This document shows, piece by piece, positions 7,162 to 58,446 of a stretch of 64,000 bases of DNA (the first letter of the stretch is position 1; every line of letters begins with the position of its first letter). The stretch covers positions 1-64,000 of the forward strand of contig JAQVDP010000001.1 in the NCBI GenBank assembly GCA_028698335.1. The letters are read 5' to 3'. Source of the DNA: Nevskiales bacterium. GTDB taxonomy: Bacteria; Pseudomonadota; Gammaproteobacteria; Nevskiales; Nevskiaceae. The notes beneath the pieces were generated by a model, which saw only the letters and a program-made list of their open reading frames with translations, made no database searches and was not told where the DNA came from. The translations under genes and the position numbers were made by a program.

Positions 7162-8615
<1,454 letters not shown>

Positions 8616-8653
8616 GAAGAACCTGGCGATGGTGCGACGCACCAATCCCAAAA

Positions 8654-8683
8654 AGTATAGCAGTTAATTTTTTGGGGGATCAA
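8654..8683 (-). promoter_or_regulatory. Sigma70-type promoter of the atp operon
   Basis: On the minus strand TTGATC (8678-8683) and TATACT (8654-8659) are separated by 18 bases. The match is four of six and five of six to consensus. Transcription would start near 8647, about 30 bases before the atpI ATG. The AT-rich spacer stands out in this GC-rich region. The site separates the atp genes from parB upstream. Confidence 0.72.
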
Positions 8684-8721
8684 CCTCAGGCGCGCCGATT
8701 CGACGAAAGTCGCAGCCCGGC

Positions 8722-9573
8722 TCAGGCCGGGCCGAGGCGCGCCAGCAGACGCTCGAGTTCCTCGGGATTGCTGAAACTGACCGTGATGCGGCCGCGGCCG
8801 TTTTCGGACTGCTGCAGGCGGACCGGCAGGCCGATGCGCTGGCTGAGCTGCGACTCCAGCGCGCGCGGCCGTTCCGGTCGCGCCTTGGCCGGCGCCGCCT
8901 CGGCGTGCACCAGCGCTTCGGTCTGCCGCACAGACAGCTGGCGCTCCACCACCATCTTGGCCAGCGCCGACTGGCGCTCGCCGCTGGCGCCGAGCAGCAC
9001 CTTGGCATGTCCCAGGCTCAGGTGCCCGTTGCGCACCAGGGTCTGCACGTCGTCATTGAGTTCGGTCAGCCGCAACAGATTGCTGACGTGAGCCCGCGAG
9101 CGGCCGATCGCCTCGGCGGTCTTCTCGTGGGTCAGGCCGCACTCCTCGATCAGCTTGTGCAGCGCCTCAGCCTCTTCCAGCGGATTCAGGTCGGCGCGCT
9201 GGATGTTCTCGACCAGCGCCACCGCCATCGCGCCGCGCTCGTCGAGGGTCTTGATCACGACCGGCACGGTCTTCAGCCCGGCCTGCTGGGCGGCGCGCCA
9301 GCGGCGCTCGCCGGCGACGATCTCGTAGCGGTCGGCACCGGAAGGCCGCACCACGATCGGCTGGACCACGCCCTGCGCGCGGATCGATTCGGCCAGCGCC
9401 TCCAGCGCCGCGGCATCGAAATGGCGGCGCGGCTGATGCTTGCCGGCATGGAGCCGGGCGACCGGCAGCTCGCGCAGCCCGGATTCCTGCTCCGACTCGT
9501 CGCCCCCGGCCGACACGCTGCTCAGCAGCGAGTCGAGCCCGCGTCCCAGACCTCTTTTCTTCGCACTACTCAT
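8722..9573 (-). CDS. parB: Chromosome-partitioning protein ParB
   Basis: ParB binds parS sites near the origin and spreads by CTP-dependent clamping; ParA pulls the complex. The N-terminal [11 protein letters not shown] is the ParA-interaction peptide, [12 protein letters not shown] is the CTP-binding motif, and the [19 protein letters not shown] segment is the helix-turn-helix. The C-terminus is the dimer domain. I started at ATG 9571-9573 ([12 protein letters not shown]), giving 283 residues; the upstream in-frame extension is Gly/Arg-rich and not conserved in type. It follows parA by 85 bases. I did not spot a full parS palindrome. Confidence 0.95.
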
Positions 9574-9658
9574 GCTGCGGCCCCGTGAGCCCGTCCCTGT
9601 TCCGATTGCAGATCCCCACCCCGCGGGCAAGGCCCTCGCCGGTCGCGCACGCGGCCGC

Positions 9659-10447
9659 TCACGCCTGCAGCCTCATCTGCCCGCCGTCGTGACGGCGCAG
9701 CAGTTCGCCGGCCAGGGCGAGGTAGGCCTTGGCCCCGGACGACGCGGGGTCGTAGAGCATGGCCGGAAGGCCATGGCTCGGCGCTTCGGCGAGGCGCACG
9801 TTGCGTGGCACCAGGGTGCGGTAGACCTTGTCGCCGAAGTGCTGCACCAGCTGGTTGGAGACGTCGTTGGCGAGGTTGTTGCGCGGGTCGAACATCGTGC
9901 GCAGCAGCCCCTCGACCTCCAGGCGCGGGTTGATGACCTTGCGGATCTTCTGCACCGTGTCCATCAGCGCCGACAGCCCTTCGAGCGCGTAGTACTCGCA
10001 CTGCATCGGGATCAGCACGCCGTCGGCCGCGACCAGTGCATTGACGGTCAGCTTCGACAGCGCCGGCGGGCAGTCGAGCACGACGTAGTCATAGTCTTCG
10101 GCCACTTCGGCCAGGGCGGTCTTCAGCGCGAAGTCGCCGACGGCGATGTCGCGCAGCTTGATCTCGGCCTCGGTCATGTCGGCGTTGGCCGGCAGCAGCG
10201 ACATGTTCAGCTCGGGCAGGTCGACGATCACCTTCTGGATCGGCGCCTCCTCGAGCAGGACGTCACGCGCGGTCAGGCTCAATGCGGACTTGTCGACGCC
10301 GACGCCCATCGTCGCATTGCCCTGGGCATCGAGGTCGACCAGCAGCACACGCCGCTTGGTCGCCGCCAGCGATGCGGACAGGTTGATTGACGTGGTCGTC
10401 TTGCCCACACCCCCCTTCTGGTTGGCGACGGCGATTACGTAGCTCAT
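9659..10447 (-). CDS. parA: Chromosome-partitioning ATPase ParA (Soj family)
   Basis: This Walker-type ATPase drives origin segregation with ParB. The deviant Walker A motif KGGVGKTT is at residues 11-18, Walker B is in VLDCPPALS, and the YALEGLSALMDTVQKI stretch is typical of the family. At 262 residues it is a chromosomal Soj-type protein without the N-terminal DNA-binding extension seen in plasmid ParA proteins. It follows rsmG by 19 bases, so rsmG-parA-parB is probably one transcript. Confidence 0.96.
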   Translation of the reverse strand: MSYVIAVANQKGGVGKTTTSINLSASLAATKRRVLLVDLDAQGNATMGVGVDKSALSLTARDVLLEEAPIQKVIVDLPELNMSLLPANADMTEAEIKLRDIAVGDFALKTALAEVAEDYDYVVLDCPPALSKLTVNALVAADGVLIPMQCEYYALEGLSALMDTVQKIRKVINPRLEVEGLLRTMFDPRNNLANDVSNQLVQHFGDKVYRTLVPRNVRLAEAPSHGLPAMLYDPASSGAKAYLALAGELLRRHDGGQMRLQA

Positions 10448-15051: not shown

Positions 15052-16035
15052 ATGAAAGCTCTGCTGTGCAAGACCTTCGGCCCGCCGGAAGATCTGGTCG
15101 TCGGGGAACACCCCGACCCGGTTCCGGGGGACAACGAGGCAGTGGTCCGCGTGCACGCCGCCGGCGTCAATTTCCCGGACACGCTGATCATCCAGAACAA
15201 GTACCAGTTCAAGCCGGAACTGCCGTTCTCGCCCGGCGGCGAGTGCGCCGGCGTGATCGAAGCCGTCGGCGCCAGGGTCAAGCACGTGAAGCCGGGCGAC
15301 AAGGTCATCGCCTTCACCGGCTGGGGCGCCTTCGCCGAGAAGGTCGCCGCGGACGCGCGGGCGCTGATCCCGATGCCCGACGGGCTCGACTTCGTCACCG
15401 CCGCGTCGTTCGTGATGACCTACGCGACCTCGTACCACGCGCTCAAGGACCGCGCCGCGCTGCAGGCCGGCGAGACGCTGGTCGTGCTCGGCGCCTCCGG
15501 CGGCGTCGGACTGGCCGCGATCGAGATCGGCAAGGCGCTCGGCGCCAGGGTCATCGCCGCGGCATCGTCGCCGGAGAAGCTCGAGGTCTGCCGCCAGCAC
15601 GGCGCCGACGAGACCATCAACTACAGCAGCGAGGACCTCAAGACACGGATCAAGGAACTCACCGGCGGCAAGGGCGCCGACGTGGTCTACGACCCGGTCG
15701 GCGGCGACTACAGCGAAGCGGCGCTGCGCAGCATGGCCTGGCGCGGACGCTTCCTGGTGATCGGCTTCGCCAACGGCGAGATCCCGAAGATCCCCCTGAA
15801 CCTGGCGCTGCTCAAGGGCTGCGCGATCGTCGGCGTGTTCTGGGGCGACTACGCCAAGCGCGAGCCGATGAACAACCTCACCGACCTGCGCACGCTGCTC
15901 GGCTGGCTCAACGACGGCACGCTCAAACCGCATGTCGCCGGCACCTATTCGCTGCAACAGGCGCCTTCCGCGATCCGCCTGCTGATGGACCGCAAGGTCT
16001 CCGGCAAGGTCGTGATCACCCCCCAGGACGCATGA
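15052..16035 (+). CDS. NADPH:quinone oxidoreductase-type MDR enzyme
   Basis: The 327 residues form a zinc-free medium-chain reductase. The N-terminal catalytic domain has VRVHAAGVNFPDTLI, and the Rossmann domain has GASGGVGLAAIEIGKALGA. No zinc-binding Cys cluster is present. The family reduces quinones or enoyl/enone groups with NADPH. It is gene two of the operon, 37 bases after the SDR and 10 before the phosphotransferase. Confidence 0.9.
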   Translation: MKALLCKTFGPPEDLVVGEHPDPVPGDNEAVVRVHAAGVNFPDTLIIQNKYQFKPELPFSPGGECAGVIEAVGARVKHVKPGDKVIAFTGWGAFAEKVAADARALIPMPDGLDFVTAASFVMTYATSYHALKDRAALQAGETLVVLGASGGVGLAAIEIGKALGARVIAAASSPEKLEVCRQHGADETINYSSEDLKTRIKELTGGKGADVVYDPVGGDYSEAALRSMAWRGRFLVIGFANGEIPKIPLNLALLKGCAIVGVFWGDYAKREPMNNLTDLRTLLGWLNDGTLKPHVAGTYSLQQAPSAIRLLMDRKVSGKVVITPQDA

Positions 16036-16045
16036 GACCCCGACG

Positions 16046-17113
16046 ATGAGCGAGCAGACCCCGCAAGCCGATTCCGCGAACACCCGCCACGCCTTCGACG
16101 TCGCCGCGCTGCAGCGCTACATGGCCGAGCACGTCGAGGGGTTCTCGGGTGAGCTGAGCATCAGCCAGTTCGACGGCGGCCAGTCCAACCCGACCTACAG
16201 GCTCAACGCCGGCGGCCGTTCCTACGTGCTGCGGCGCAAGCCGCCCGGCAAGCTGCTGGCGTCGGCGCACGCGGTGGACCGCGAGTACCGCGTGATCACC
16301 GCGCTGGCGGGCACCGACGTTCCGGTCGCGAAGACCTACTGCCTGTGCGAGGACGATGCGGTCATCGGCACCGCGTTCTACATCATGGAGTACGTCGAAG
16401 GCCGCATCCTCTGGGATCCGGCGCTGCCGGGCTACGCGCCGGAAGTGCGCACCGCGATGTTCGACGAGATGAACCGCGTCATCGCCGCGCTGCACCAGGT
16501 CGACTACGCCGCGATCGGCCTGTCCGACTACGGCAAGCCGGGCAACTACTTCGCGCGCCAGATCGGGCGCTGGTCCAAGCAGTACCGCGCCTCCGAGACC
16601 GAGCGCATCGACGCGATGGAACGCCTGATCACCTGGCTGCCGGAACACATCCCGCCCGGCGACGAAACCAGCATCGTCCACGGCGACTACCGCCTCGACA
16701 ACATGATCTTCCACCCGACCGAACCGCGCGTGCTCGCGGTGCTGGACTGGGAGCTGTCGACGCTCGGCCACCCGCTGGCGGACTTCGCCTATCACTGCAT
16801 GACCTGGCACATCCCGGCCGGCGTGTTCCGGGGCCTCGGTGGCGCCGACCTCGACGCCCTCGGCATCCCCGACGAGTCCGAATACGTGCGGCGCTACTGC
16901 GAACGCACCGGACGCGGTCCGATCGACCCGGACCACTGGGACTTCTACATGGCCTACAACCTGTTCCGGCTCGCCGCGATCCTGCAGGGGATCATGGGCC
17001 GGGTGAAGGACGGCACCGCCGCCAGCAGCAAGGCCGTGCAGATGGGCAAGGCGGCGCGGCCGCTGGCCGATCTGGCCTGGACGCAGGTCGAAAAAATCCT
17101 CGCGCGCCGCTGA
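16046..17113 (+). CDS. Aminoglycoside-phosphotransferase-fold kinase linked to acyl-CoA dehydrogenase
   Basis: The 355-residue protein has the APH/choline-kinase fold: [12 protein letters not shown] in the nucleotide loop, catalytic [12 protein letters not shown] (about residues 211-222) and the metal-binding [17 protein letters not shown]. This subgroup is regularly next to acyl-CoA dehydrogenases; in animals the equivalent domain of ACAD10/11 phosphorylates 4-hydroxyacyl-CoAs. By that analogy it may phosphorylate a hydroxyacyl substrate for the dehydrogenase encoded next. It is not an antibiotic-resistance gene on this evidence. Confidence 0.85.
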
Positions 17114-17151
17114 CGCGACGCCCCCCCCCGACGCATACCGGAGTCGACACC

Positions 17152-18411
<1,260 letters not shown>

Positions 18412-18421
18412 GGAGCGAACG

Positions 18422-19426
18422 ATGACCGCAGCCGTCAACCGCCAGTTCCGTCTCGCCCGCCGCCCCGTCGGCATGGTCGGCCGCGAGGATTTCGAGTTCG
18501 TCGAAAACCCCGTCCCCACGCCGGGCGACGGCGAGTTCCTGGTGCGCCTGCACTACATCTCCCTGGACCCGGCGATGCGCGGCTGGATGAACGAGGGCAA
18601 GTCGTACATCGCGCCGGTCGGCATCGGCGAGGTCATGCGCGCCGGCGCGGTCGGCGAAGTCGTCGCCTCGAATCACCCCGGCTTCGCCGTCGGCGAACAC
18701 GTCGTCGGCACCTTCGGCGTCCAGGACTACGCCATCTCCAACGGCAAGGGCGTCAGCAAGGCCGATCCGGCGCTGGCACCGCTGCCGGTGTATCTCGGCA
18801 CCCTCGGCATGCCCGGCATGACCGCCTACTTCGGCCTGCTGGAAGTCGGCAAGCCGCAGGCCGGCGACACCGTCGTCGTCTCCGGCGCGGCCGGCGCCGT
18901 CGGCCAGATCGTCGGCCAGATCGCCAAGCTCAAGGGCTGCCGCGTGGTCGGCATTGCCGGCGGTACGGACAAATGCCGCTACGTCGTCGACGAACTCGGC
19001 TTCGACGCCTGCATCGACTACAAGCACGACGACCTGCGCAAGGCGCTCAAACAGCACTGCCCGCAGGGCGTCAACGTCTACTTCGACAACGTCGGCGGCG
19101 ACATCCTCGACACCGTGCTGACCCAGCTGGCGATGGGCGCACGCATCGTCATCTGCGGTGCGATCTCCCAGTACAACAACACCACGCCGGTCAAAGGCCC
19201 GAGCAACTACCTGTCGCTGCTGGTCAACCGCGCCAGCATGCAGGGCATGGTCGTGTTCGACTGGGCCGACCGCTACGGCGAAGCCGTGCGCGAGATGGGC
19301 GCATGGCTGGCCTCGGGCCAACTGAAAACCCGCGAGGACATCGCCGAAGGGCTGGAGCACTTCCCGGAGACGCTGCAGCGCCTGTTCAAGGGTGAGAACA
19401 CCGGCAAGCTGGTGCTCAAGGTCTAG
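18422..19426 (+). CDS. NADP-dependent MDR oxidoreductase (CurA / leukotriene B4 12-hydroxydehydrogenase type)
   Basis: There are 334 residues. The double-bond-reductase subgroup is indicated by LHYISLDPAMRGWM near residue 42, VVSGAAGAVGQIVGQIAKLKG for cofactor binding and YFDNVGGDILDTVL. Such enzymes reduce alkenal or alkenone carbon-carbon double bonds with NADPH. The start has GAGGAG 8 bases upstream and lies 10 bases after the dehydrogenase stop. It is the last gene of the operon, followed by a small hairpin. Confidence 0.92.
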   Translation: MTAAVNRQFRLARRPVGMVGREDFEFVENPVPTPGDGEFLVRLHYISLDPAMRGWMNEGKSYIAPVGIGEVMRAGAVGEVVASNHPGFAVGEHVVGTFGVQDYAISNGKGVSKADPALAPLPVYLGTLGMPGMTAYFGLLEVGKPQAGDTVVVSGAAGAVGQIVGQIAKLKGCRVVGIAGGTDKCRYVVDELGFDACIDYKHDDLRKALKQHCPQGVNVYFDNVGGDILDTVLTQLAMGARIVICGAISQYNNTTPVKGPSNYLSLLVNRASMQGMVVFDWADRYGEAVREMGAWLASGQLKTREDIAEGLEHFPETLQRLFKGENTGKLVLKV

Positions 19427-19436
19427 GCAACTCACA

Positions 19437-19456
19437 CGCCGGCAATCCAGCCGGCG
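19437..19456 (+). terminator. Small hairpin after the acyl-CoA operon
   Basis: CGCCGGC and GCCGGCG form a perfect 7-bp stem with a 6-base loop, followed by CATTTC. It lies 10 bases past the last operon gene. The U-run is poor, so it is a moderate terminator candidate. Confidence 0.5.
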
Positions 19457-19688
19457 CATTTCGCAGTTACAGCATCAGGCCTGGATTCTCACGAGTCTCG
19501 GCCTGATTGCGTTGGGCTGACTCTATATCTGCTCCTACACTTGGCTCGGATCGGATTGCGACTCGCATGGCGCTGCGTATCGCGATACTTCGCAGAGGCG
19601 CCGGTTCGGGCAATGAAAACGGGCAATCAACCCGCGCAGCCACGCCAATCAGCCTGCCTCCCAACTGGCTCGCCGTCTCGATACGAAC
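19457..19688. other. Non-coding stretch at the left edge of the accessory island
   Basis: This stretch has lower GC than its left neighbour and only short overlapping frames on both strands (up to about 80 codons), none with a convincing ribosome site or a family I recognise. It may be a decayed remnant or 3' flank of the island. No terminal inverted repeats, tRNA end or integrase trace were seen. Confidence 0.4.
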
Positions 19689-20909
19689 TCAGCGCGTTGT
19701 CTCATCCGACATCCGCGGCGCAGAACCCGTCCTCACCAACCGCGCCGCCTTTGGCTCATACACATAGCCGGTTATTGTCCCATCCTTGATGCGCTCAACG
19801 GCTTCGTCAACGACGAACAAGGGAACGAGGAACCATTCCTGCGGCTGCACGGGATGACCAAAACGGTCGTTAATAGTGATGTTCAGACGCGCCGATGCAA
19901 ACAGCCTGTGAAACAAGTTTTCCATCCGCGTGCGATTGATGCCCGCCAGTTTGTACGTTGCGACCACCTCGACTTTCGCCAGAAGATATGTGGCGTCGTG
20001 CTCTGCATCTGCGATGCGGGTCTCTACCTTGCTGCCGGTGACCCCGATCTTGTGAATCAAGTCCCGGTGCTGCGCGACGTAGGGATGATCCGACAAGGAG
20101 CGCAGGACGTAGATCGTGCCACTTTCAACATCATCAGCCTCAAGCTCGCCGCCAAAGGAAAGTTGACCGCTTTCGGGAGAGGTCAGCCGCCGCGCGGCGG
20201 GATCGTTGTAGAACGCTCGCTGGAGCGAGCGCAGCAGCAGATTGCTTTCGGTGCCGTTGGAGAAGATGAGGCGCAGGCGGCGGTCCACTTCCCCGGCTGT
20301 GGTTTTCAACGGCTCGCCGACCTCGGCGACGTAGAGAGTAAGGCCATCGAGAACGAAAAAGTCCCCGACTTCAATCGCACGGCGGCCCGCTTCGATGGGC
20401 TGGGACTGGCGCATACCAGTTTTGACTTCCGCTTGCACGCGCTCGAACAAGGGCCGGAAGGTCTCGAAGTCCTCGCAGGGCTTGCGATCCGCGATCTCCT
20501 CGGCGGCGCGCTTTTCGGCGCTGGTACGGACATGGCGCAAGACCGTGATGTCGTCCGCGCCGGCAACATCCGCCAGTTCGGCAGCCAGGTCGTCGATGTC
20601 GATAGTTTCGTCCGCCGAAGCGGCAACGGTCGGTGCCCCAGCAAGCAAGCCCTGATGGTCTAGCGGCTCAAGCAAGACGCGGCAATCCGGGAGCGCGCGT
20701 AGACGGTCGAGCCGCACGGCATATAGGCGCTCGAATATGTCGCGGTCTTCACCATGCTGCGGCGCACGCCCGTGCTGCTCTGTGAAGCGTTGGATTTCCT
20801 CGAAGCCAGCAATGACACGCTCCTCGCTGGCTGGGCGGCCATTTTTCTTCTCAGCCGGAGCGAACTCGGCCAGCTCTGCCGCCAGGTCGTCAAGATCGGA
20901 GTTACTCAT
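19689..20909 (-). CDS. GIY-YIG nuclease-domain protein (T5orf172 / MUG113 type), island gene 3
   Basis: The 406-residue protein has a C-terminal GIY-YIG-like fold: GTIYVLRS (264-271), HKIGVT (286-291), Arg298 in the helix and Glu330 in RMENLFHRLF, matching the Tyr, Gly, Arg and metal-binding Glu positions. The N-terminus holds two copies of a short acidic motif, DDLAAELA (7-14 and 107-114), and a helical GRAP segment (48-51). The start ATG overlaps the helicase stop in ATGAGTAA (8 bases), so upstream in-frame methionines are rejected. It is presumed to be the DNA-cutting part of the three-gene system; no experiment supports that here. Confidence 0.85.
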   Translation of the reverse strand: MSNSDLDDLAAELAEFAPAEKKNGRPASEERVIAGFEEIQRFTEQHGRAPQHGEDRDIFERLYAVRLDRLRALPDCRVLLEPLDHQGLLAGAPTVAASADETIDIDDLAAELADVAGADDITVLRHVRTSAEKRAAEEIADRKPCEDFETFRPLFERVQAEVKTGMRQSQPIEAGRRAIEVGDFFVLDGLTLYVAEVGEPLKTTAGEVDRRLRLIFSNGTESNLLLRSLQRAFYNDPAARRLTSPESGQLSFGGELEADDVESGTIYVLRSLSDHPYVAQHRDLIHKIGVTGSKVETRIADAEHDATYLLAKVEVVATYKLAGINRTRMENLFHRLFASARLNITINDRFGHPVQPQEWFLVPLFVVDEAVERIKDGTITGYVYEPKAARLVRTGSAPRMSDETTR

Positions 20910-22956
20910 AGCGTCCCTCCGCCCTGAAACGCATGAAGGCGGCCGCGCCTTCGGCAAGGTGCTTTTCCCAGGCGTCCTGCGAGGTAACCGATGGAGCCCT
21001 ACCACGCTCGCGCTTGAACTCAACCGCGCGCTTGGCGATCACTTTGGCATCCTCAGGCGTGATCGAGGTGCGCTTGGCCGAGATGGTCGCCGCGACCTGC
21101 TTCAAGCTGTCCTCGCTCATGGTCTTGGCGAGGATGGCGTAGGCTTCGCCAAAGGGGTTGATGCGGTCGATCAGGTCGATGTCCAACTCGCGCACGTCCA
21201 TCGCAAAGCGGCGCACGCCGTCGATCAGGGCGGTGTTGGGCGACCCATCGCTCTCGCCTTCGGTGACAAGCCGCTTGGCCTGCTGCGTGAGGTTGAGGGC
21301 GGCGATGGCGTGCTGGCGCACGGCCTCCTGATCTTCGGCGTCAAGCTCGGGATACTTGTCCTTGATGATCTTGCCCATGCGAACTTGCGTCAGCTCCTCG
21401 GGCACCAGCTCCTCATCGAACAGGCCACGCTCGATGGTGGGCTTGTCCTGCACGAAGGCCGCGATGACTTCGTTCAGGTCTTCCTGACAGATTCGCGCCC
21501 CCTCCTTGCTCTTGGGCTCGGCGAGGCCCTTGATCTCGATTTGGTACGCCCCTGTCTGCTCATTGACACCGACATTGCAGCGGTCCGCGTCGTAGCCACC
21601 TTCCCCGTAGTCAAAGCCCGGCGTCGGGCCGCTGTCGGGGTTCTTGGGCTTGAACTCAAAGCGCGGAGCAAGAACCTGCTCCATCAGCAGGCTCGCCGCG
21701 ATGGCCTTCAACGTATCGTTGACGGCCTCGGTGACAGCTTCCTCGGCCGCATCCGGCTCGGCGATCAGGTTGGTGAACCTCGCGCGGGTCTTGCCGGGCG
21801 CGTCGCGGGTAGCTCGGCCGATGATCTGCACGATCTCGGTCAGGCTGGCGCGGTAGCCCACGGTCAGCGCATGTTCGCACCAAATCCAATCGAAGCCTTC
21901 CTTCGCCATGCCCAGCGCGATGATGATGTCCACATGGTCGCGGTTGTTCTTCTGCGCCGGGTCTTTGAGCGCGGCGGACACGCGATCGCGCTTGGCGGCA
22001 TCGTCATCGACGAGATCGGCGATCCGCAGCACGCGGCCATCGGGGCGCTTGACACGTTGGAAGCCGGTCGCAGGGTCGATGCCTTGCCATTCACCCAGCG
22101 CCTCGATGATGTGCTCCACTTCCCGCATCTTGTCCTTCGTGCTCTCGCGCGAATTGACATTCGGGATGTGAATGATGGTCTTCTCGGCGGGATCGAGGAC
22201 ATTGAGGATGTCATCGACGTAAGGCCCGCTGTAGAAGAAGTAGCCGATGTCGAGTTGCTTGAGGTACTCGTAGCCGTTGAGCTGCTCGTAGTAGGTGTAG
22301 GTGACGGTATCGAACTTCGACTCATCCTGCGGTGCGAGCACAGCCTCGGCGTCGCCACGGAAGTAGGAACCGGTCATGGCAACGATGTGCGTCTTGCCCC
22401 GCGCGAAGAACTGCCCGAGGTGCAAGCCGAGCTTGTTGTCCGGGTTGGCCGAAACGTGGTGGAACTCATCGACCGCGATCAGTCGGTCGTCGAACGCCTC
22501 CACGCCGTAGGCATCGACTGCGAAGCGGAAGGTCGCGTGGGTGCAGACCAGCACCTTGTCGTCGCCTTCGAGGAATGCGCCCATCGACTTGACCTTGCCG
22601 CCATTGTCGTTGCCCGGCGCGTTGCACAGGTTCCACTTGGGTTCGACCTGCCAGTCGGACCAGAAGCCGTACTTCGACAGCGGTTCGTCGTTGAAGCTGG
22701 CACCGATCGACTTCTCCGGTACAACGATGATGACCTGCTTCAAGCCCTGGTTCTTGAGCTTGTCGAGTGCCACGAACATCAGCGCACGGCTCTTGCCCGA
22801 TGCGGGCGGCGACTTGATAAGCAGGTATTGCTCGCCCCGCTTCTCGTAGGCCCGCTCCTGCATGGGCCGCATCCCAAGCGCATTGGCTTTGGTCGACGCA
22901 CCGTTGCGGGCGTAGGTGACGGAAACGGACGGTACGGACTTGATCTTGTCGCTCAT
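20902..22956 (-). CDS. Superfamily 2 DEAD/DEAH-type helicase, island gene 2
   Basis: The 684 residues show a complete SF2 set: Walker A SPPASGKS (49-56), Walker B with DEFH (163-166) rather than DEAD or DEAH, motif III MTGS (194-197), GMAKEGFDW (349-357) and motif VI QIIGRATRD (377-385). The first 200 residues resemble the ATPase half of restriction-type translocases. The C-terminal third has no domain I know, ending with a helical segment containing RGRAPS that resembles part of the GIY-YIG partner. Its ATG overlaps the methyltransferase stop as ATGA. Role: ATP-driven translocation or unwinding coupled to the methylase and nuclease (inference). Confidence 0.88.
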   Translation of the reverse strand: MSDKIKSVPSVSVTYARNGASTKANALGMRPMQERAYEKRGEQYLLIKSPPASGKSRALMFVALDKLKNQGLKQVIIVVPEKSIGASFNDEPLSKYGFWSDWQVEPKWNLCNAPGNDNGGKVKSMGAFLEGDDKVLVCTHATFRFAVDAYGVEAFDDRLIAVDEFHHVSANPDNKLGLHLGQFFARGKTHIVAMTGSYFRGDAEAVLAPQDESKFDTVTYTYYEQLNGYEYLKQLDIGYFFYSGPYVDDILNVLDPAEKTIIHIPNVNSRESTKDKMREVEHIIEALGEWQGIDPATGFQRVKRPDGRVLRIADLVDDDAAKRDRVSAALKDPAQKNNRDHVDIIIALGMAKEGFDWIWCEHALTVGYRASLTEIVQIIGRATRDAPGKTRARFTNLIAEPDAAEEAVTEAVNDTLKAIAASLLMEQVLAPRFEFKPKNPDSGPTPGFDYGEGGYDADRCNVGVNEQTGAYQIEIKGLAEPKSKEGARICQEDLNEVIAAFVQDKPTIERGLFDEELVPEELTQVRMGKIIKDKYPELDAEDQEAVRQHAIAALNLTQQAKRLVTEGESDGSPNTALIDGVRRFAMDVRELDIDLIDRINPFGEAYAILAKTMSEDSLKQVAATISAKRTSITPEDAKVIAKRAVEFKRERGRAPSVTSQDAWEKHLAEGAAAFMRFRAEGRYE

Positions 22957-25733
22957 GCGTTGGCTCCCGCCTTGCGCTTCTTGCCCTTGGCCGGTGCAGC
23001 CGAAGCGGTCATCTTGGTATAAAGGTCAAACAGCTTTTCCAGCCGCTCGGTGTCGTTCTTGAAGCGCCGACCGATGTAGATGCGCTCCAGCACTTCGTCG
23101 TTGCGCTCATGCGCCGCCCGCAGGTCAGCGGGCATGTTCTCGGGGTCGTACAGGTCCGCGATGGTCGCGGGGAAGTGATGTTCTCGCGCCAGCAGGATGT
23201 CCTCGGCACAGCGTGTCAGGTCTGCCTTGTTCTTGTCGGTCAGTGCCGGGATTGGAAAGGCGTTCCAACCCATAGTGTTCGAGTACCGCAATCGCGTCTC
23301 TAGTTGCCCACAAACAGTCTTGACCCAAACCATGTGCAACCGTGACGCAATGAGGGCAATGTTCCAGAGGGCGGCGTCGTACAGGGCAAAGGCATTGTCC
23401 GAGATGATCGAGTGTGAAGATAGAAGTCCAACTGGAAGGTAAGGGCGCGACTCCGATGTGACCTTTGGAACGACAATTGAGTAGTCATTGCCTCGGCCCT
23501 GAATCTGGCGAAAGCGATGTGGTCGCTCGGCGTACGCCCGCGTTGATTCGGCATCGCTCGCTGCGCGCATTGCACGTACAGCTTGCAAGCGCCTTTGAAC
23601 AAAGGAAGATGATTCGACCCTCTCAACGTCTGAATCTTCAATCCAAAGACACCTTCTCACAATACCCTTGACGAACTCCTGCGAACCGACAAAGTCGAAG
23701 ATCAAATCAGACAAGAAGGGCTCACGGGCTACTGCCTCATTTGCCTCTTGCATCGACAAGAGAAGATTTCCGCCGTCGGACGGCTTGTTACCCCACACCA
23801 TTGCGGCCGTGTCTTGAGGAGGGCGTGAGATCGCCTCAACAATGACATTCGGACCAGGCACAAGATAAGCGTTGATATGCTCTGCGTCCTTGGCGATGAC
23901 AGCGCCCCCGTCACCAACAGTGAAAAGACGACGGATTTTTTCGGCGCGGTTGGAGATACCGACGATGACGACGGTCACTCCTGCGTTGTGACTGGCGAGG
24001 TTCGCCCACTTGAAGCTCGTATGGGCAAAAGCAATCTCGTGCCCCGATTGGAATATCAACGGCCAAAGAATGGGCACCTGCTCGCCTTGGCAAATGGAAT
24101 TCGTCGCCACGAACGCCGCGACGGCGTTGGTTTGCATGCCGTAGTCCGCAGCCTTGATGAACCAGCCCGCAACGTAATCGAGTGACTTCCAGCTTCGCGT
24201 GCGACTTCGGAATAGCGCTTCCAAGTCGGACTTCTGCTCCGGTGTTTGCCAAGTGAAGCCCAAGTACGGCGGGTTGCCGCAGATGTACGTCTCGCCACCT
24301 TCGTTCTCAAAAGCTATCTCAGCTTGGTCAAGCGGCGAGCCGAACAAGTCATCGGCCTGCACCTTCACGCCGGTTCCGGTCGGCGGGCAAATGCTCAACC
24401 AGTCGAGCCGCAGCGCGTTTCCGCAGGTGATCCAGTTCTCGTTGCGCAGAGGCAGAAACTCAGCCAGCGCCAGTTTCTGGCCCCGATACAACACGTCGCA
24501 CTGATACTCGGCAATGACCAGCGCAAGGCGGGCGATCTCTGCCGGGAAATCGCGTAGCTCGATCCCGCGAAAATTGGTGACCGGGATTTCTGATGCGCGA
24601 TCCGGCTCGCCGCGCCGCCGATTGATCTCGGCCTCGATGGCGCGCATTTCCTTATAGGCGATGACCAGGAAGTTGCCCGAACCGCAGGCCGGATCGAAGA
24701 CTCTGATCCTCGCCATGCGCTTGCGCAGGTTCAGCAACATACGGGCGTTATCACCCGCTTCATCCAGCTTCTCCCGCAGGTCGTCGAGAAACAGCGGGTT
24801 CAGCACCTTCAGGATGTTGGGGACACTGGTGTAGTGCATCCCCAGCTCGCCGCGCTCCTCGTCCTCGGCGACGGCCTGGATCATTGAGCCGAAGATATCC
24901 GGGTTGATCTTTGTCCAGTCCAACCCGCCGACGTGCAGCAGGTAAGAGCGGGCGATCTTGCTGAATCGTGGCACTTCGTCACTGCCAGAGAACAACTGGC
25001 CGTTGACGTAGGGGAAATCGGCTGCCCAGCGCGGAATCCCAGCGGCGGCACGTTCCTCACGCTTGGTATTCATGGCGCGAAACAGCGTCGCGATGACTTC
25101 GTGGGTGTTCGTCGAGTCCTTCGCGCTCATCTGCGCGACGGTGTCGGTGAAGGCACCGACGAAGATGTCGGTGTCCTCCGCGAAAAAACAGAAGATCAAG
25201 CGCGCCATGAACTTGTTCATGTCGTGGCGACGCTCCGCCGTGCCCCATTCGGGGTTGTCCTTCAGCAGTTCGACGTACAGGCGATTGAGGCGGCTGGTCG
25301 CCCGGATGTCGAAAGCGTTCTCGCTGATCTGGCGGACGGTGCTGATGCCCGCCAGCGGCAGGAAGAAGCCGAAGTGGTCGGGAAAGTCCTTGAAGGCGCA
25401 GGCAACGGTCTCGCCGCTGGTCAGGTCTTCGGCCTCGAAGTCCGTGCCGTCCGTAGCAAGGATGAACTTCGCCTTGGCCTTGGCCGTCGCCGGGCTGGCC
25501 TTGAGAGCGGCCAGCGTCTGCGTCACCCGCCCAGCGTCGCAGGTCAGAATGTGGATGTTGCTGGTCTGGAGAACACCGCCGAGGTCGGACTTGTTCGACG
25601 CCCCCGCGCGCAGGCGTTTGATGGTCGTCGCCTTGTTGCCAAAGGCCTCAAGAAAGGCATAGGGGAACTCTGCACGGTCGAACGGTTGCTCCGCGAGGTC
25701 GGTGATGGCTTGTTCGATTTCTACGGCGTTCAA
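22953..25733 (-). CDS. MmeI-type class I DNA adenine methyltransferase, island gene 1
   Basis: The 926 residues contain the SAM motif DPACGSGN (347-354), preceded by the GMHYTSVPNILKVLNPLFLD segment typical of MmeI-like enzymes, and the catalytic GNPPY (486-490) of N6-adenine methylases. The C-terminal recognition region ends in ASRLHMVWVKTVCGQLETR followed by NAFPIP, again MmeI-like. The N-terminus (RAEFPYAFLEAFGNK onward) has no clear PD-(D/E)xK nuclease motif, unlike type IIL enzymes that cut by themselves. The start codon is TTG (25731-25733), directly after an in-frame TAG, with AGAGGGGCG upstream. The recognition part is visibly richer in AT than the flanks. Confidence 0.9.
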   Translation of the reverse strand: MNAVEIEQAITDLAEQPFDRAEFPYAFLEAFGNKATTIKRLRAGASNKSDLGGVLQTSNIHILTCDAGRVTQTLAALKASPATAKAKAKFILATDGTDFEAEDLTSGETVACAFKDFPDHFGFFLPLAGISTVRQISENAFDIRATSRLNRLYVELLKDNPEWGTAERRHDMNKFMARLIFCFFAEDTDIFVGAFTDTVAQMSAKDSTNTHEVIATLFRAMNTKREERAAAGIPRWAADFPYVNGQLFSGSDEVPRFSKIARSYLLHVGGLDWTKINPDIFGSMIQAVAEDEERGELGMHYTSVPNILKVLNPLFLDDLREKLDEAGDNARMLLNLRKRMARIRVFDPACGSGNFLVIAYKEMRAIEAEINRRRGEPDRASEIPVTNFRGIELRDFPAEIARLALVIAEYQCDVLYRGQKLALAEFLPLRNENWITCGNALRLDWLSICPPTGTGVKVQADDLFGSPLDQAEIAFENEGGETYICGNPPYLGFTWQTPEQKSDLEALFRSRTRSWKSLDYVAGWFIKAADYGMQTNAVAAFVATNSICQGEQVPILWPLIFQSGHEIAFAHTSFKWANLASHNAGVTVVIVGISNRAEKIRRLFTVGDGGAVIAKDAEHINAYLVPGPNVIVEAISRPPQDTAAMVWGNKPSDGGNLLLSMQEANEAVAREPFLSDLIFDFVGSQEFVKGIVRRCLWIEDSDVERVESSSFVQRRLQAVRAMRAASDAESTRAYAERPHRFRQIQGRGNDYSIVVPKVTSESRPYLPVGLLSSHSIISDNAFALYDAALWNIALIASRLHMVWVKTVCGQLETRLRYSNTMGWNAFPIPALTDKNKADLTRCAEDILLAREHHFPATIADLYDPENMPADLRAAHERNDEVLERIYIGRRFKNDTERLEKLFDLYTKMTASAAPAKGKKRKAGANA

Positions 25734-25849
25734 CTATTCGCCCCTCTGGCGCTCAGGGTCCTTCGGCCTGTGCTCTCGGCACTGTCGCTTCCAGTCAACG
25801 ACGATCCAGGCGTCGGTCCCACCTTTCCATTCGTTGCGTTCTCGTGCAT
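25730..25849 (-). CDS. Possible 39-codon leader ORF overlapping the methyltransferase start
   Basis: An ATG at 25847-25849 opens a 39-codon frame whose TGA overlaps the TTG start of the methyltransferase as TTGA, mimicking the ATGA coupling inside the island. The peptide is rich in Ser, Gly, Thr and Arg and matches nothing I know. No good ribosome site precedes it, and the ATG lies only 7 bases downstream of the candidate -10 box, so it may simply be chance. Confidence 0.2.
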   Translation of the reverse strand: MHENATNGKVGPTPGSSLTGSDSAESTGRRTLSARGANS

Positions 25850-26109
25850 GCGCGAATGATACCTGCGTCGCGTAACGGCGGACGGGCCTTTACTGCGTTA
25901 CGTCTGATAGTCAACGGCCGCTTTCTTACAAAGAAATCAAGGGCGTGAAGGGTCGATTCGGGCTGGCTGTAGCCGTTCACGGTGGCGACGATCACCCCCC
26001 ATCCGATACCGAAGACTGCCACCCCTGAGCGCGACGCGCGTGCGTACAATCCGGACATAAACAACGGACACACCTGCGGGTGCGTCACGTCATAAGAGGA
26101 GAGAGGCGC
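25734..26109. promoter_or_regulatory. Divergent intergenic region between the island and the MFS gene
   Basis: For the island, a minus-strand TATCAT box lies at 25856-25861. A 7-bp inverted repeat, CGTAACG at 25871-25877 and CGTTACG at 25896-25902, straddles its -35 position (18 bases between arms), which suggests an operator. For the MFS gene, a plus-strand TACAAT box lies at 26045-26050, with no good -35 match, followed by the small hairpin CACC-TGC-GGGTG. No gene other than the doubtful leader ORF is supported. Confidence 0.45.
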
Positions 26110-27438
26110 ATGCTGCAGAACAGCCGGACACCAGCGTCGCTGGCGTACCCGTGGTTCGTGGTCGTGATCCTGATGATCACCTACGTCATTTCGTTCGTGG
26201 ATCGGCAGATTCTCAATCTGCTGGTCGGCCCGATCCGCCGTGACCTCGGCATCAGCGACACGCAGATGAGTCTGCTGATGGGCTTTTCGTTCGCGCTGTT
26301 CTACACGATCCTCGGCATTCCGCTGGCCCGCATCGCCGACAGCAAGAGCCGCCGCGGCCTGATCGTCGCGGGCATCCTGGTCTGGAGCGCGATGACGGCG
26401 ATGTGCGGCATCGCGCGGCACTACTGGCAGTTGCTGATGTTCCGCATCGGCGTGGGCGTCGGCGAAGCCGCGCTGTCGCCGGCCGCGTATTCGATGATCG
26501 CGGACTACTTCCCGCCGGAGCGCCGGTCGAGCGCGATGAGCGTGTATTCGATGGGCATCTTCCTGGGCTCGGGCATCGCCTTCCTGCTCGGCGGGCTGGT
26601 CATCCAGTACGCGGCGGCGCAGGGCGCCGTGAGCCTGCCGCTGATCGGCGACGTGTATCCGTGGCAGCTGGTGTTCCTGATTCTCGGCGCGACCGGCATC
26701 GTCTTCAGCCTGGCCTTCGTGTTCGTGCGCGAGCCGGCACGCCACGGCACGGTCGCGGGCCAGCACAGCCTGCCGCTGTCGGAGGTCGCCAGCTATCTGT
26801 GGTCCAACCGTCGCGCCGTGCTCAATCACAACATCGGCTTCGCGCTGCTGGCGATGTGCTCCTACGGCACCACCGCGTGGATACCGACTTACTTCGTGCG
26901 CACGCATGGCTGGACGGCACCGCAGATCGGCATCGTCTTCGGCCTGATCGTGATGGTGTTCGCCTCCGCCGGCATCATCCTCGGCGGCCGTCTGGCGGAC
27001 CGCTGGATCCGCCAGGGCAAGACCGACGCCGCGCTGCGCGTCGGCGTGCTCGCCGCCATCGTGTCGATCTGCGGTGGCGCGCTCTACCTGATCGCGCCCA
27101 CCGGCACGCTGGCCGCCATTGCCCTGGTGCCGCCGGTGTTCGCGCTGGCGATGCCCTTCGGCGCGGCGCCCGCGGCGCTGCAGGAGATCGTCCCCAACCG
27201 CATGCGCGGGCAGACCACGGCGGTCTACCTGTTCATGACCAACATGATCGGGCTCGGGCTGGGCCCGACCGCGATTGCGCTGTGCACCGACTACCTGTTC
27301 GCGGACGACTACGCGCTGCGCTGGTCGATGCTGATCGTCAGCAGCCTGGCGAGCCTGGCCTCGGTGCTGTTCCTGACCGCCGGCATGAAGCCCTACAGCC
27401 GTATGCTGGAGCGCCTGCGCGCGGCGCCCGCCGTCTGA
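26110..27438 (+). CDS. Major facilitator superfamily transporter, spinster-like
   Basis: The 442 residues hold about twelve hydrophobic helices. The first helix carries YVISFVDRQILNLLVGPIR, and GVGEAALSPAAYSMIADYFP is the loop 4-5 signature of the spinster/hexuronate-type MFS group. I used the ATG at 26110 (MLQNSRTPAS), which has the strong site GAGGAGAGAGG; a GTG 30 bases upstream is less likely. Substrate unknown: relatives move organic anions or lipid-like molecules. It begins just past the island and belongs by base composition to the host backbone. Confidence 0.88.
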   Translation: MLQNSRTPASLAYPWFVVVILMITYVISFVDRQILNLLVGPIRRDLGISDTQMSLLMGFSFALFYTILGIPLARIADSKSRRGLIVAGILVWSAMTAMCGIARHYWQLLMFRIGVGVGEAALSPAAYSMIADYFPPERRSSAMSVYSMGIFLGSGIAFLLGGLVIQYAAAQGAVSLPLIGDVYPWQLVFLILGATGIVFSLAFVFVREPARHGTVAGQHSLPLSEVASYLWSNRRAVLNHNIGFALLAMCSYGTTAWIPTYFVRTHGWTAPQIGIVFGLIVMVFASAGIILGGRLADRWIRQGKTDAALRVGVLAAIVSICGGALYLIAPTGTLAAIALVPPVFALAMPFGAAPAALQEIVPNRMRGQTTAVYLFMTNMIGLGLGPTAIALCTDYLFADDYALRWSMLIVSSLASLASVLFLTAGMKPYSRMLERLRAAPAV

Positions 27439-27465
27439 CGGCGCGATCAGACACCTCCGTCAGAC
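27433..27465 (+). terminator. Weak hairpin at the end of the MFS gene
   Basis: GTCTGACGG and CCGTCAGAC form a 9-bp stem with a 15-base loop and overlap the MFS stop codon. No U-run follows, so function as a terminator is uncertain. Confidence 0.35.
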
Positions 27466-27550
27466 AGGGCGGACTTGGGTAGCTTCCCGCTTTCGAGCCG
27501 GGGACAGTCTGTGTAGCCTGCTGCTCCCATCGATTGCATCCGGAGCCGCC

Positions 27551-29233
27551 ATGCGCCCTCTCCTCGTCGCCGCACTCGCCACGTCCATGCTGGCGCTGAG
27601 CGCCTGCAACTCCCGCGACAAGGCCGACGCAGAGCAGACGGCCCAGCCGCCCACAACGGAAGCGACCCCGGCAGCGACGCCGAACTACGCGCAGCAGCAT
27701 GCGGGCGACTACGCCACCGTGCAGCTCACCGCCAAGCTCGACGGCCTCAGCGACAATCAGCGCAGGATGCTGCCGCTGCTGATCCAGGCGGCGCAGACGA
27801 TGGACGAGATCTTCTGGCTGCAGGGCTGGGGCGAGCGCGACGCGCTGCTGGGCACGATCAAGGACCCGGCGCTGCGCGAACTGGCCGACATCAACTACGG
27901 CCCCTGGGACCGGCTCAACGAGGACCATCCGTTCATCGAAGGCGTCGGCCCGCGCCCGCCGGCGGCGCAGCTGTATCCGCAGGACATGAGCAAGGCCGAG
28001 TTCGAGGCCGCCGATCTGGCGGACAAGACCGGGCTGTACACGCTGCTGCGCCGTGACGCCGACGGCAAGCTGATCACCGTGCCCTACCACGAAGCCTACG
28101 CCGCGCCGCTCAAGCGCGCGGCCGGGCTGCTGACGCAGGCCGCGGCGCTGGCCGACGACGCCGGCTTCAAGCGCTATCTGGAACTGCGCGCCGACGCGCT
28201 GCTGACGGACGACTACCGCCCCAGCGACATGGCGTGGATGGACATGAAGAGCAATCGCCTGGACCTGGTGATCGGCCCGATCGAAACCTACGAGGACCAG
28301 CTCTACGGCTACAAGGCCGCCTACGAAGCCTATGTGCTGGTCAAGGACGTGGCCTGGAGCGAACGCCTCGCCCGCTTCGCGCAGTACCTGCCGGAGCTGC
28401 AGCGCGGCCTGCCGGTGCCGGACGCCTACAAGCAGGAGACGCCGGGCAGCGACGCCGATCTGAATGCCTACGAGGCGGTCTACTACGCGGGTGACGCCAA
28501 CGTCGGCGCCAAGACCATCGCCATCAATCTTCCGAACGATGAGGTCGTGCAGCTCGAAAAGGGCTCGCGCCGGCTGCAGCTTGAGAACGTGATGCAGGCC
28601 AAGTTCGACCGCATCCTGATGCCGATCGCGCGCGAACTGATTGCCGACGACCAGCTCAAGCATCTGAGCTTCGACGCCTTCTTCCAGAACACGATGTTCC
28701 ACGAAGTCGCGCATGGTCTGGGCATCAAGAACACGATCAACGATCGCGGCACCGTGCGCGAGGCACTGAAGGAATACGCGTCCAGCTTCGAGGAAGGCAA
28801 GGCCGACATTCTCGGCCTGTACATGGTGACCCGGCTCGCCGAGAAGGGCGAACTCGATGCCGACAAGCTGATGGACAACTACGTCACCTTCCTCGCCGGC
28901 ATCTTCCGCTCGGTGCGCTTCGGCGCCAGCGACGCCCACGGCAAGGCCAACATGCTGCGCTTCAACTTCTTCCGCGAGCACGGCGCCTTCGAGCGCGATG
29001 CCGAAACCGGCCGCTACCGCGTGAACTTCGAAAAGATGCAGCAGGCGATGACGGACCTGTCCGCCAGGCTGCTGACGATCCAGGGCGACGGCGACTTCGA
29101 CGCCGCCAAACAGATGACCGACACGCTCGGGATCGTGGACGACTCGCTGGCCGGCGATCTGCAGCGTTTGAGCCAGGCGAGGATTCCGGTGGACATCCGC
29201 TTCGAGCAGGGCATCGCCACGCTCGGGCTCTAG
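27551..29233 (+). CDS. Lipoprotein zinc peptidase of the dipeptidyl-peptidase III (M49)-like group
   Basis: The 560-residue product begins with a lipoprotein signal (MLALSAC, lipidated Cys19). The zinc motif HEVAH is at 384-388 and EEGKAD at 414-419 supplies the third ligand. Classical M49 enzymes have HExxGH with six residues; this one has the shorter HExxH but keeps the EExxAD motif, as in a bacterial branch of the family. It probably trims short peptides in the periplasm. It is the first of four peptidase genes within 20 kb. Confidence 0.78.
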   Translation: MRPLLVAALATSMLALSACNSRDKADAEQTAQPPTTEATPAATPNYAQQHAGDYATVQLTAKLDGLSDNQRRMLPLLIQAAQTMDEIFWLQGWGERDALLGTIKDPALRELADINYGPWDRLNEDHPFIEGVGPRPPAAQLYPQDMSKAEFEAADLADKTGLYTLLRRDADGKLITVPYHEAYAAPLKRAAGLLTQAAALADDAGFKRYLELRADALLTDDYRPSDMAWMDMKSNRLDLVIGPIETYEDQLYGYKAAYEAYVLVKDVAWSERLARFAQYLPELQRGLPVPDAYKQETPGSDADLNAYEAVYYAGDANVGAKTIAINLPNDEVVQLEKGSRRLQLENVMQAKFDRILMPIARELIADDQLKHLSFDAFFQNTMFHEVAHGLGIKNTINDRGTVREALKEYASSFEEGKADILGLYMVTRLAEKGELDADKLMDNYVTFLAGIFRSVRFGASDAHGKANMLRFNFFREHGAFERDAETGRYRVNFEKMQQAMTDLSARLLTIQGDGDFDAAKQMTDTLGIVDDSLAGDLQRLSQARIPVDIRFEQGIATLGL

Positions 29234-54893: not shown

Positions 54894-54923
54894 TGGATGC
54901 TTTACCGCAAAACGTCGGACCCG

Positions 54924-56276
54924 TTACTTCTTGGCCTGCTTCTGCACATTGCCCGGGTCGAAGTACGAGGACTCGAATACCTGCTCGACCGACTCCGGAT
55001 CCTCGTTGTTCATCGCCTGGACCAGGTAGCGCCCGTTGTGCAGGTCGTAGATCGTCTCCAGGATCGGCGCCAGGAACGGCTTGTCGTACGCCTGAGTGGT
55101 ATGCGCCTCCTGCCAGCGCCACAGTTCACCGCGGCGGTCGTAGATGTCGACCAGCACGATCTGCCAGGAATCCTCGTCGAGATAGAAACGACGCTTGGCG
55201 TACATGTGCGTGGTCGTCGGCTTGACCTCGCCCTCGACGATCCAGACCCGGTGCAACTCGTAGCGCGGCAGATTCTGGTCGATGTGCCCCTTCTGGACGA
55301 TGTCGCGGTACTTGTACTGGTCGCTGTGGATCTTGTACGAGTTGTACGGAACGTACAGCGCCTTCTTGCCGACGATCTTCCAGGTGTAGCGGTCGGTCGC
55401 GCCGTTGAAGGTGTCGGTCTGGTCGTTGGTACGCTGGCCGTCGGCGCCGGTCCCCGGATTGTCGTAGGCAACGTTCGGCGCACGCCGCAGGCGGCGCTGG
55501 CCGGGGTTGTACTGCCAGGCCCGGCGCGGTTCCTTGACCTGATCCATGGTCTCGTGCACCAGCGTGATCGTGCCGGCCAGACGCGGCGGTTCGGTCACGA
55601 TCTGCAGGAAGTACAGGATGATGTTGTCGAGCGACTGCGGGGTGGCGTCCTTCAGGCTGTAGTTGAAGGTCACGTCCTCACGGATCTTGACCAGATTGAA
55701 GTTGCCGGAGGTGGTCACCGCCGCCTGATTGTTCCAGCGCCGCGTCCCCTGGCCGCGATAGCGGACCTTGTGGTTCCAGACCGGCTCCACGCCGCTCTTG
55801 GGAATCGGGAACGGGACGCCGATGACGGCATTGACCAGCGCCTCGCCACCACCGCCGAGTTCGGCATTGAGCGCGTTGTTGTACGTCGCGTCGTAGTAGA
55901 ACTGCGGGAACGCCGCCGTCCGCCGGGTCTGGTACACGTCCATCTTGTACGTTCCCGGGTACTGGGCGAACATCGCCTTCTGCCCCTCGCTGAGCTTGTC
56001 GGCGTATTCGGCGACGTTCTTGCCGGTGATCGTGAACAGCGGCTTGTCGTCCGGGAACGGATCGCAATAGCGGCTGCCCTCGCCCTTGTAGCAGGACGGC
56101 GAAGTGCTCAGGCCACCCTCCCATTCGGGGATGGCGCCGTCGGCACTTCCGGCGCGTTCGCCGCCGACCGGGGTCAGGGTGGTCTTGAGCTTTTCTGCCT
56201 CTTCCGGGCTGACTTTCGCGGTTGCCGGCAACGCCAGCGCGAGCAAAACCAGTCCGATTCCACGGATGTTATTCAT
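54924..56276 (-). CDS. DUF1329 family outer-membrane-associated protein
   Basis: The 450 residues begin with a signal peptide (MNNIRGIGLVLLALALPATA). The body has the DUF1329 traits: AIPEWEGGLS near the N-terminus, YDATYNNALN, RRAPNVAYDNPGTGADG and GELWRWQEAHTTQAYDKP. The fold is related to LolA/LolB-type lipid-binding barrels. In several bacteria such genes accompany RND-type lipid or hydrocarbon exporters and DUF1302 proteins; here no DUF1302 gene is adjacent. GGAGGAG precedes the ATG. Confidence 0.88.
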   Translation of the reverse strand: MNNIRGIGLVLLALALPATAKVSPEEAEKLKTTLTPVGGERAGSADGAIPEWEGGLSTSPSCYKGEGSRYCDPFPDDKPLFTITGKNVAEYADKLSEGQKAMFAQYPGTYKMDVYQTRRTAAFPQFYYDATYNNALNAELGGGGEALVNAVIGVPFPIPKSGVEPVWNHKVRYRGQGTRRWNNQAAVTTSGNFNLVKIREDVTFNYSLKDATPQSLDNIILYFLQIVTEPPRLAGTITLVHETMDQVKEPRRAWQYNPGQRRLRRAPNVAYDNPGTGADGQRTNDQTDTFNGATDRYTWKIVGKKALYVPYNSYKIHSDQYKYRDIVQKGHIDQNLPRYELHRVWIVEGEVKPTTTHMYAKRRFYLDEDSWQIVLVDIYDRRGELWRWQEAHTTQAYDKPFLAPILETIYDLHNGRYLVQAMNNEDPESVEQVFESSYFDPGNVQKQAKK

Positions 56277-56387
56277 CTTCTCGGGTCTCCTCCGAACCTC
56301 TCGGCATCTACGATAGAGCAGTTCGGGGACGCGGCCAACCGTAAATGCATCCCTGCCGCCGTCCGTCGCCGGTCCGGCCGGTTCCGG

Positions 56388-58436: not shown

Positions 58437-58446
58437 GGTGCCCGGT

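Follow-up and report, generated by a model that had tools for sequence, protein, structure and literature searches.

What do three overlapping genes for an adenine methyltransferase, a helicase and a GIY-YIG nuclease do together, and which of their products chooses the DNA to be attacked? The genes lie on the minus strand of a 64,000-nucleotide stretch of a Nevskiales bacterium genome (contig JAQVDP010000001.1, positions 1 to 64,000; hereafter the window) as three intact open reading frames (ORFs) without internal stops. Gene 1 (22953..25733; 926 aa, TTG start) encodes a DnmA/YeeA-like, MmeI-family adenine methyltransferase with a target-recognition domain (TRD), gene 2 (20902..22956; 684 aa, ATG start) a YeeB-like superfamily 2 (SF2) helicase/translocase, and gene 3 (19689..20909; 406 aa) a YeeC-like protein with a C-terminal T5orf172 GIY-YIG nuclease. 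The frame of gene 3 is open over 19689-21023, and its internal ATG at 20909 gives the 406-aa product. Genes 1 and 2 overlap by four bases (ATGA, 22953-22956) and genes 2 and 3 by eight (ATGAGTAA, 20902-20909), overlaps that suggest translation of the trio as one unit. These coordinates and overlaps came from an earlier, sequence-only reading of the window; the ORF listing and a printout of the junctions confirmed them, and Pfam bore out its three product types (MmeI domains; DEAD/ResIII; T5orf172). We find that the trio belongs to the OspHL35III / DnmA-YeeB-YeeC class of restriction-modification (R-M) systems, likened to it by published description, and that it is probably an intact, horizontally acquired member in which a methyltransferase steers a motor and a GIY-YIG nuclease.

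The class has been described twice. OspHL35III combines an MmeI-like methyltransferase/TRD lacking an endonuclease motif with a separate translocase and a GIY-YIG endonuclease (Blow et al. 2016, PMC4752239, S4 Fig C legend), an architecture that the paper terms 'Type IIG-like' and credits with "several hundred members in REBASE". The window trio likewise has an MmeI-type methyltransferase/TRD without the N-terminal endonuclease motif and, by sequence, a separate translocase gene first downstream and a GIY-YIG gene second downstream; compared by description, not by alignment, it does not differ from what the legend sets out. Bacillus subtilis dnmA-yeeB-yeeC encodes a matching trio of protein types in the same, conserved order (PMC7261158, PMC9973331) and has been read as a 'Type I-like RM system' (PMC7261158). 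Its DnmA methylates GACGAG, with N6-methyladenine (m6A) at position 5 (PMC7261158, PMC9973331), the position also predicted for the window enzyme. For MmeI homologues that lack the motif and neighbour yeeB and yeeC, the B. subtilis papers point to Morgan et al. 2009, and for a defence-island context to Makarova et al. 2011 (PMC7261158, PMC9973331). Because the trio is thus already published as OspHL35III-type (PMC4752239) and as dnmA-yeeB-yeeC (PMC9973331), the novelty that the sequence-only reading had claimed for it does not hold.

Gene content separates the trio from other systems. Our Pfam scan covered the trio and 13 other window ORFs, with the left 16 kb of the window outside it, and in this set it found no HsdS, PglZ, DUF1998 or PLD gene; among the 13 other ORFs there was no PglZ, BrxC or BrxL-type gene. 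The absence of HsdS, PglZ, DUF1998 and PLD, from which a misfit with type I, BREX and DISARM had been argued, therefore holds for the genes scanned, and Pfam and PADLOC uphold the misfit. Type I R-M is ruled out by the lack of an HsdS/HsdR gene in the operon and of any nuclease domain match in the gene 2 helicase. BREX is ruled out because PglZ and BrxC are missing from the 13 ORFs, although gene 1 has weak PglX matches, and DISARM because no DrmA, DrmB (DUF1998) or DrmC (PLD) occurs among the genes scanned, gene 1 scoring 92 bits against DrmMI versus 957 bits against the Type IIG profile REase_MTase_IIG. AchA6III-type systems also have an MmeI-like methyltransferase without a nuclease motif, but join it to one fused PLD-nuclease/translocase gene (Blow et al. 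2016, PMC4752239), in contrast to the separate translocase and GIY-YIG genes of the window. PADLOC recognises the trio in part. Its Type IIG profile covers gene 1 over positions 6-910 of 912, but gene 2 receives weak PbeA matches and gene 3 none; the tool thus under-calls the trio, as gene 1 alone is assigned.

Gene 1 keeps the full MmeI-type layout but has lost the catalytic residues of its nuclease domain. It matches all five Pfam domains of the MmeI layout (MmeI_N 128 bits, MmeI_hel 88, MmeI_Mtase 397, MmeI_TRD 265, MmeI_C 68.5) and aligns to the MmeI structure 5hr4 with an E value of 3.7e-147. Its methyltransferase domain spans residues 323-604 by Pfam (23922..24767, minus strand) and carries NPPY at residues 487-490 (24264-24275, minus strand). 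The N-terminal domain MmeI_N (PF20464; residues 1-159; 25257..25733, minus strand) is retained in degenerate form, and the D-E-K residues that make up the MmeI catalytic site (D70, E80 and K82; PMC4833311) are lost. The sequence-only reading was thus right that PD-(D/E)xK is missing, but the domain itself survives and the catalytic residues alone have gone. On a common alignment, all 9 solo MmeI-type enzymes keep the triad whole and none of the 100 enzymes from full trios does; an alignment-free pattern of the triad nevertheless hits 7 of these 100, presumably fortuitously. In a 31-row tree of the first-set enzymes of at least 700 aa (22 trio and 9 solo, after removal of four that were shorter or split), one branch parts trio from solo enzymes with support 100/100. 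Gene 1 shares the five-domain layout, adenine methyltransferase and TRD of Type IIL enzymes such as MmeI. These keep the triad in the same polypeptide, whereas the window trio has lost it and gained two partner genes; with no intact PD-(D/E)xK triad in gene 1, a lone Type IIL enzyme is rejected.

The two partner genes retain full sets of active-site residues. Gene 2 matches DEAD and ResIII barely over the Pfam cut-off, yet its SF2 motif set is complete, with Walker A at residues 50-57, DEFH at 163-166 and motif VI at 377-385. Gene 3 matches MUG113 (50 bits) and T5orf172 (46 bits), and its GIY-YIG nuclease domain (residues 264-374; 19788..20120, minus strand) presents G264, Y267, K287, G289, R298, E330, H334 and E358. 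Across 100 trios, the Walker A, DExH and motif VI residues checked in the helicase are invariant, as are all eight GIY-YIG residues except H334, which is kept in 99. AlphaFold models gave a mean predicted local distance difference test (pLDDT) of 74.8 and a predicted template modelling score (pTM) of 0.53 for the helicase, and a mean pLDDT of 77.6 and pTM of 0.40 for the GIY-YIG protein. In its model, a part that is helical comes at the N-terminus, a part rich in beta structure lies in the middle, and the GIY-YIG domain makes up the rest. Sequence searches of the PDB with the two proteins returned nothing usable. A GRxP-like stretch common to the helicase (residues 615-684) and the GIY-YIG protein (22-92; hhalign E 5e-5, probability 39%) was set aside as too weak to serve as evidence.

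Are the three genes a unit beyond the window? We assembled two sets of loci. A search with the methyltransferase family PF20473 gave 55 matches, spread over 46 of the 398 genomes sampled from the phylum, and a control search matched in B. subtilis; regions were fetched for 34 of the 55, leaving out 21 weaker matches (91-123 bits). Together with two helicase-only contigs, three plasmids and the window, these regions make up the first set (n=37). It holds 27 helicase loci, with the GIY-YIG gene next downstream in 27/27 and the methyltransferase upstream in 25/27, the other two beginning at contig starts. The remaining loci are nine solo methyltransferases and one methyltransferase fragment. Three of the solos lie so near contig ends that partner genes would not show (L066, L069 and L070, with 110, 1,032 and 262 bases downstream), but the helicase search found no match in their genomes either. 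Among the solo genomes, G150 has a trio at another place (L067, L068). In L068, the trio methyltransferase is split into two ORFs (7584-10297, plus strand), and the helicase and GIY-YIG genes are open.

The second set (n=107; 80 genome and 27 viral loci) was picked entirely by helicase and therefore says nothing on how often that gene is missing. All three genes are present in 94 of its loci, and 11 miss one for want of contig room; in two viral loci (L119, L121) the helicase is truncated and the GIY-YIG gene absent despite room. Gene order and strand are identical in all 25 and all 94 full loci. The co-occurrence on which the sequence-only reading had staked its case is thus real, and conservation of the trio across helicase-bearing loci excludes a chance grouping. 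The class is also common: the helicase has matches in 24 of the 398 phylum genomes, in 9 of 58 family genomes (one of the nine a short piece), in 264 of 72,556 plasmid records (154 covering at least 80% of the query) and on 27 IMG/VR contigs. A profile scan of species genomes added at least 558 confirmed relatives among 591 stretches listed. Going by record titles, the best 80 of these, kept for locus comparison, comprise among others isolates of Bacillota and single metagenome-assembled bins of Acidobacteria, cyanobacteria, Bacteroidetes and Spartobacteria, in which misbinning is possible. One genome carries a second, partial helicase match (G400:C41:11603-11869; residues 6-94, 91% identity) about 2 kb from its full copy.

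We then asked which protein reads the target. Length filters reduced the 144 loci to the 100 full trios (44 dropped, the nine solos among them). The window and a Cupriavidus trio (L124) are nearly identical in helicase (0.96), GIY-YIG protein (0.88) and the methyltransferase parts MT_N (0.97) and MT_C (0.99), and share 0.38 identity in the TRD, with E-R versus K-D as MmeI position-6 determinants. Scanned in 30-residue steps against L124, L125, L131 and L086, window identity drops from about residue 450-480 and recovers at about 840-870. These comparisons outline an exchangeable specificity region of about residues 481-840 (23214..24293, minus strand) that includes the TRD (627-831). Over all pairs of the 100 trios, helicase distance correlates with that of MT_N at 0.96, GIY_N at 0.92, GIY_C at 0.88 and the TRD at 0.40; with helicase distance removed, the partial correlation of TRD with GIY_N is 0.02 (p 0.275). 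Some close pairs keep a TRD identity of at least 0.97 (L113/L118, L185/L189, L081/L097), and in 31 of 4,950 pairs the TRDs are at least 0.70 alike though the helicases are under 0.86. The specificity region thus shifts as a cassette, and motor and nuclease serve many specificities, as in Type I systems. These patterns suggest that the methyltransferase alone decides which DNA sequence is targeted.

The published MmeI code allowed us to predict that sequence. Mapping the MmeI determinants (PMC4833311) onto gene 1 through the 5hr4 alignment gave A728, R742, Q743, W647, K650, K757, D779, N780, R816, E812 and R814, which suggest the mark 5'-ACG(G or R)(m6A)C-3'. Position 6 would be the firmest letter, C, because it is set by an E-R pair that in the passages on the code is exclusive for C:G (PMC4833311). 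Position 3 depends on K-D and position 4 on a residue bigger than alanine; of the two residues for position 5, one is conserved as a leucine (L811), and V758 stands in for the threonine. Positions 1 and 2 are the weakest predictions: the first is made ambiguous by the R at the 737 position, which would favour G, and the second depends on a lysine whose partner tyrosine is W in the window copy. At 806/808, 41 of the 100 trios carry E-R, 31 K-D, 25 R-D and 3 another pair.

Together, these comparisons lead us to favour a Type I-like machine in which one methyltransferase would read the site and steer a translocase and a site-blind GIY-YIG nuclease. The methyltransferase would mark a single asymmetric six-base site with m6A on one of its strands. 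At an unmarked site it would act as the recognition subunit and recruit or activate the YeeB-like translocase, which would move DNA with ATP; the YeeC-like nuclease would then cut, with no site specificity of its own. The likeness to Type I R-M would lie in a recognition/modification core that steers a motor and a non-specific nuclease and in an exchangeable TRD; the trio differs in lacking HsdS, in carrying the TRD inside the methyltransferase and in having motor and GIY-YIG nuclease as separate proteins. Self-marking, translocation and GIY-YIG cutting were already proposed in the sequence-only reading; that mechanism is plausible, gains support here and comes close to published readings (PMC7261158, PMC4752239). 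The least probable of the other accounts we weighed is an exclusion that is guided by methylation and involves no cutting, of the kind proposed for BREX. It would share the logic of a site-reading methyltransferase, and fits the weak PglX matches of gene 1, but the complete GIY-YIG active site is conserved and the 13 other ORFs scanned lack the BREX-type genes named above.

Several observations weigh against a methyltransferase-steered machine. The TRD-GIY_C partial correlation, with helicase distance removed, is small and distinct from zero (0.13; p 0.010, 199 permutations), and from it a weak nuclease contribution to specificity is possible. Near-copies (L115/L116, L142/L160) sit among the 100 trios, and these and shared ancestry inflate the pair counts. 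R-D, found at 806/808 in a quarter of the trios, lies outside the published MmeI code passages (PMC4833311). The helicase model matched many SF2 proteins in Foldseek, among them EcoR124I HsdR and the Type ISP enzyme LlaBIII, so that its subfamily is not settled and the modelled folds single out no restriction-type motor; the GIY-YIG model matched nothing in the PDB at E 0.001 or better. In B. subtilis, the cluster neither restricted transformation nor protected against three phages, and those who reported this term it a relic (PMC7261158, PMC9973331). For the window copy, finally, restriction is an activity that we infer from its genes.

The TRD-GIY_C correlation could point to a GIY-YIG protein that is a conventional site-specific Type II endonuclease reading the same sequence as the methyltransferase, with the helicase as accessory; GIY-YIG restriction enzymes of this kind do occur beside methyltransferases (PMC1564403). 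A nuclease with site recognition of its own would have to change in step with the TRD. Yet different TRDs stand beside GIY-YIG proteins 0.83-0.96 identical, and similar TRDs beside dissimilar ones: L147 and the identical copies L115/L116 have TRDs 0.88, helicases 0.68 and GIY-YIG proteins 0.55 identical. Moreover, every full-length triad-less enzyme in the PF20473-chosen set had both helicase and GIY-YIG genes, and loss of DnmA in B. subtilis reportedly caused no growth defect (PMC7261158). We regard this reading as very improbable.

The B. subtilis results bear on another account, that the methyltransferase alone works, as an epigenetic orphan, and that helicase and GIY-YIG protein are remnants. 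This was proposed for B. subtilis, where deletions altered neither phage sensitivity nor DNA uptake (PMC9973331, PMC7261158). The YeeB and YeeC proteins of B. subtilis reportedly lack several stretches (PMC9973331), whereas the sites checked in the window copy are all present. In addition, the fixed gene order and the active-site residues kept across the trios speak against decay, and deletions of dnmA and yeeB in Vibrio crassostreae raised sensitivity to some phages (Piel et al., through PMC9973331). A relic is therefore unlikely for the window, and the methyltransferase-steered machine remains the reading we prefer.

Copies of the class differ in spacing at one junction. Helicase and GIY-YIG frames overlap or sit at most 13 bases apart in 100/100 trios, and methyltransferase and helicase frames lie at least 200 bp apart in 45/100, often with extra ORFs between them (L078, L080, L082, L084, L087, L088, L115, L127, L128, L136, L145, L163, L203 and others). 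Many junction ORFs start at the methyltransferase stop, and some of those listed may be no genes. Pfam named four of ten representatives: RhuM, PDDEXK_4, a Schlafen/AlbA_2 protein with a RecG-like C-terminus and a YhcG/DUF1016 nuclease; one of the other six had a weak DUF6771 match under the cut-off and five had none. PADLOC, run on six junction ORFs, gave one weak DrmC match. We found no description of this slot in the published accounts of the class searched, which is no proof of absence. The window trio has no extra ORF there. It is conceivable, and we put it forward tentatively, that the dead MmeI nuclease domain serves as a dock for the motor-nuclease pair, that the TRD can be exchanged without re-matching the nuclease, and that the junction is a second slot, taking RhuM, YhcG, PD-(D/E)xK nucleases, Schlafen/AlbA and unnamed families, of which the window copy would be the empty form. 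Separately, L080 and L087 carry about 7 kb of inserted ORFs in the junction, several common to both; by eye, the inserts seem to include toxin-antitoxin-like genes and, in L080, a partial reverse-transcriptase-like ORF.

The window trio is an intact, horizontally acquired operon on a lower-G+C insert. Its G+C is 0.59-0.62 overall and 0.71-0.84 at third codon positions, below the 0.91-0.94 measured at third positions in four neighbouring genes. The segment 19508..25990, which contains the trio, was not found in a close relative of the same genus (L224), although the flanks match on both sides (15052-19507 at 85% and 25991-29212 at 93% identity). L224 holds 5.2 kb of other DNA at this site, with GTP cyclohydrolase, ferritin-like and helix-turn-helix-like genes matched slightly under the cut-off. 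No exact 10-base direct repeat occurs between the edges 19451-19700 and 25701-26000. A phage-borne origin was set aside, as 50,697 phage records gave three weak or partial helicase matches; relatives do lie on the 27 IMG/VR contigs, some of which may be host DNA rather than true viruses.

By Pfam, the neighbours of the trio are an ADH-type oxidoreductase, a major facilitator superfamily transporter and an M49 peptidase. Ten more window ORFs comprise peptidases, metabolic, transport and lipase-type genes and DUF3080, with three lacking a match. An open frame of 1190 aa at 54897-58469 on the plus strand had no match in Pfam at E 1e-5; it may encode a large protein without a name or, in DNA of such high G+C, be open by chance.

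In the published accounts of this common class that we consulted, methylation by DnmA is shown, no biochemical demonstration of a restriction step was found, and the best-studied member looks inactive. The window supplies an intact copy with a predicted motif, and near-identical motors and nucleases stand beside different TRDs. Together, these make methyltransferase-steered cutting directly testable.

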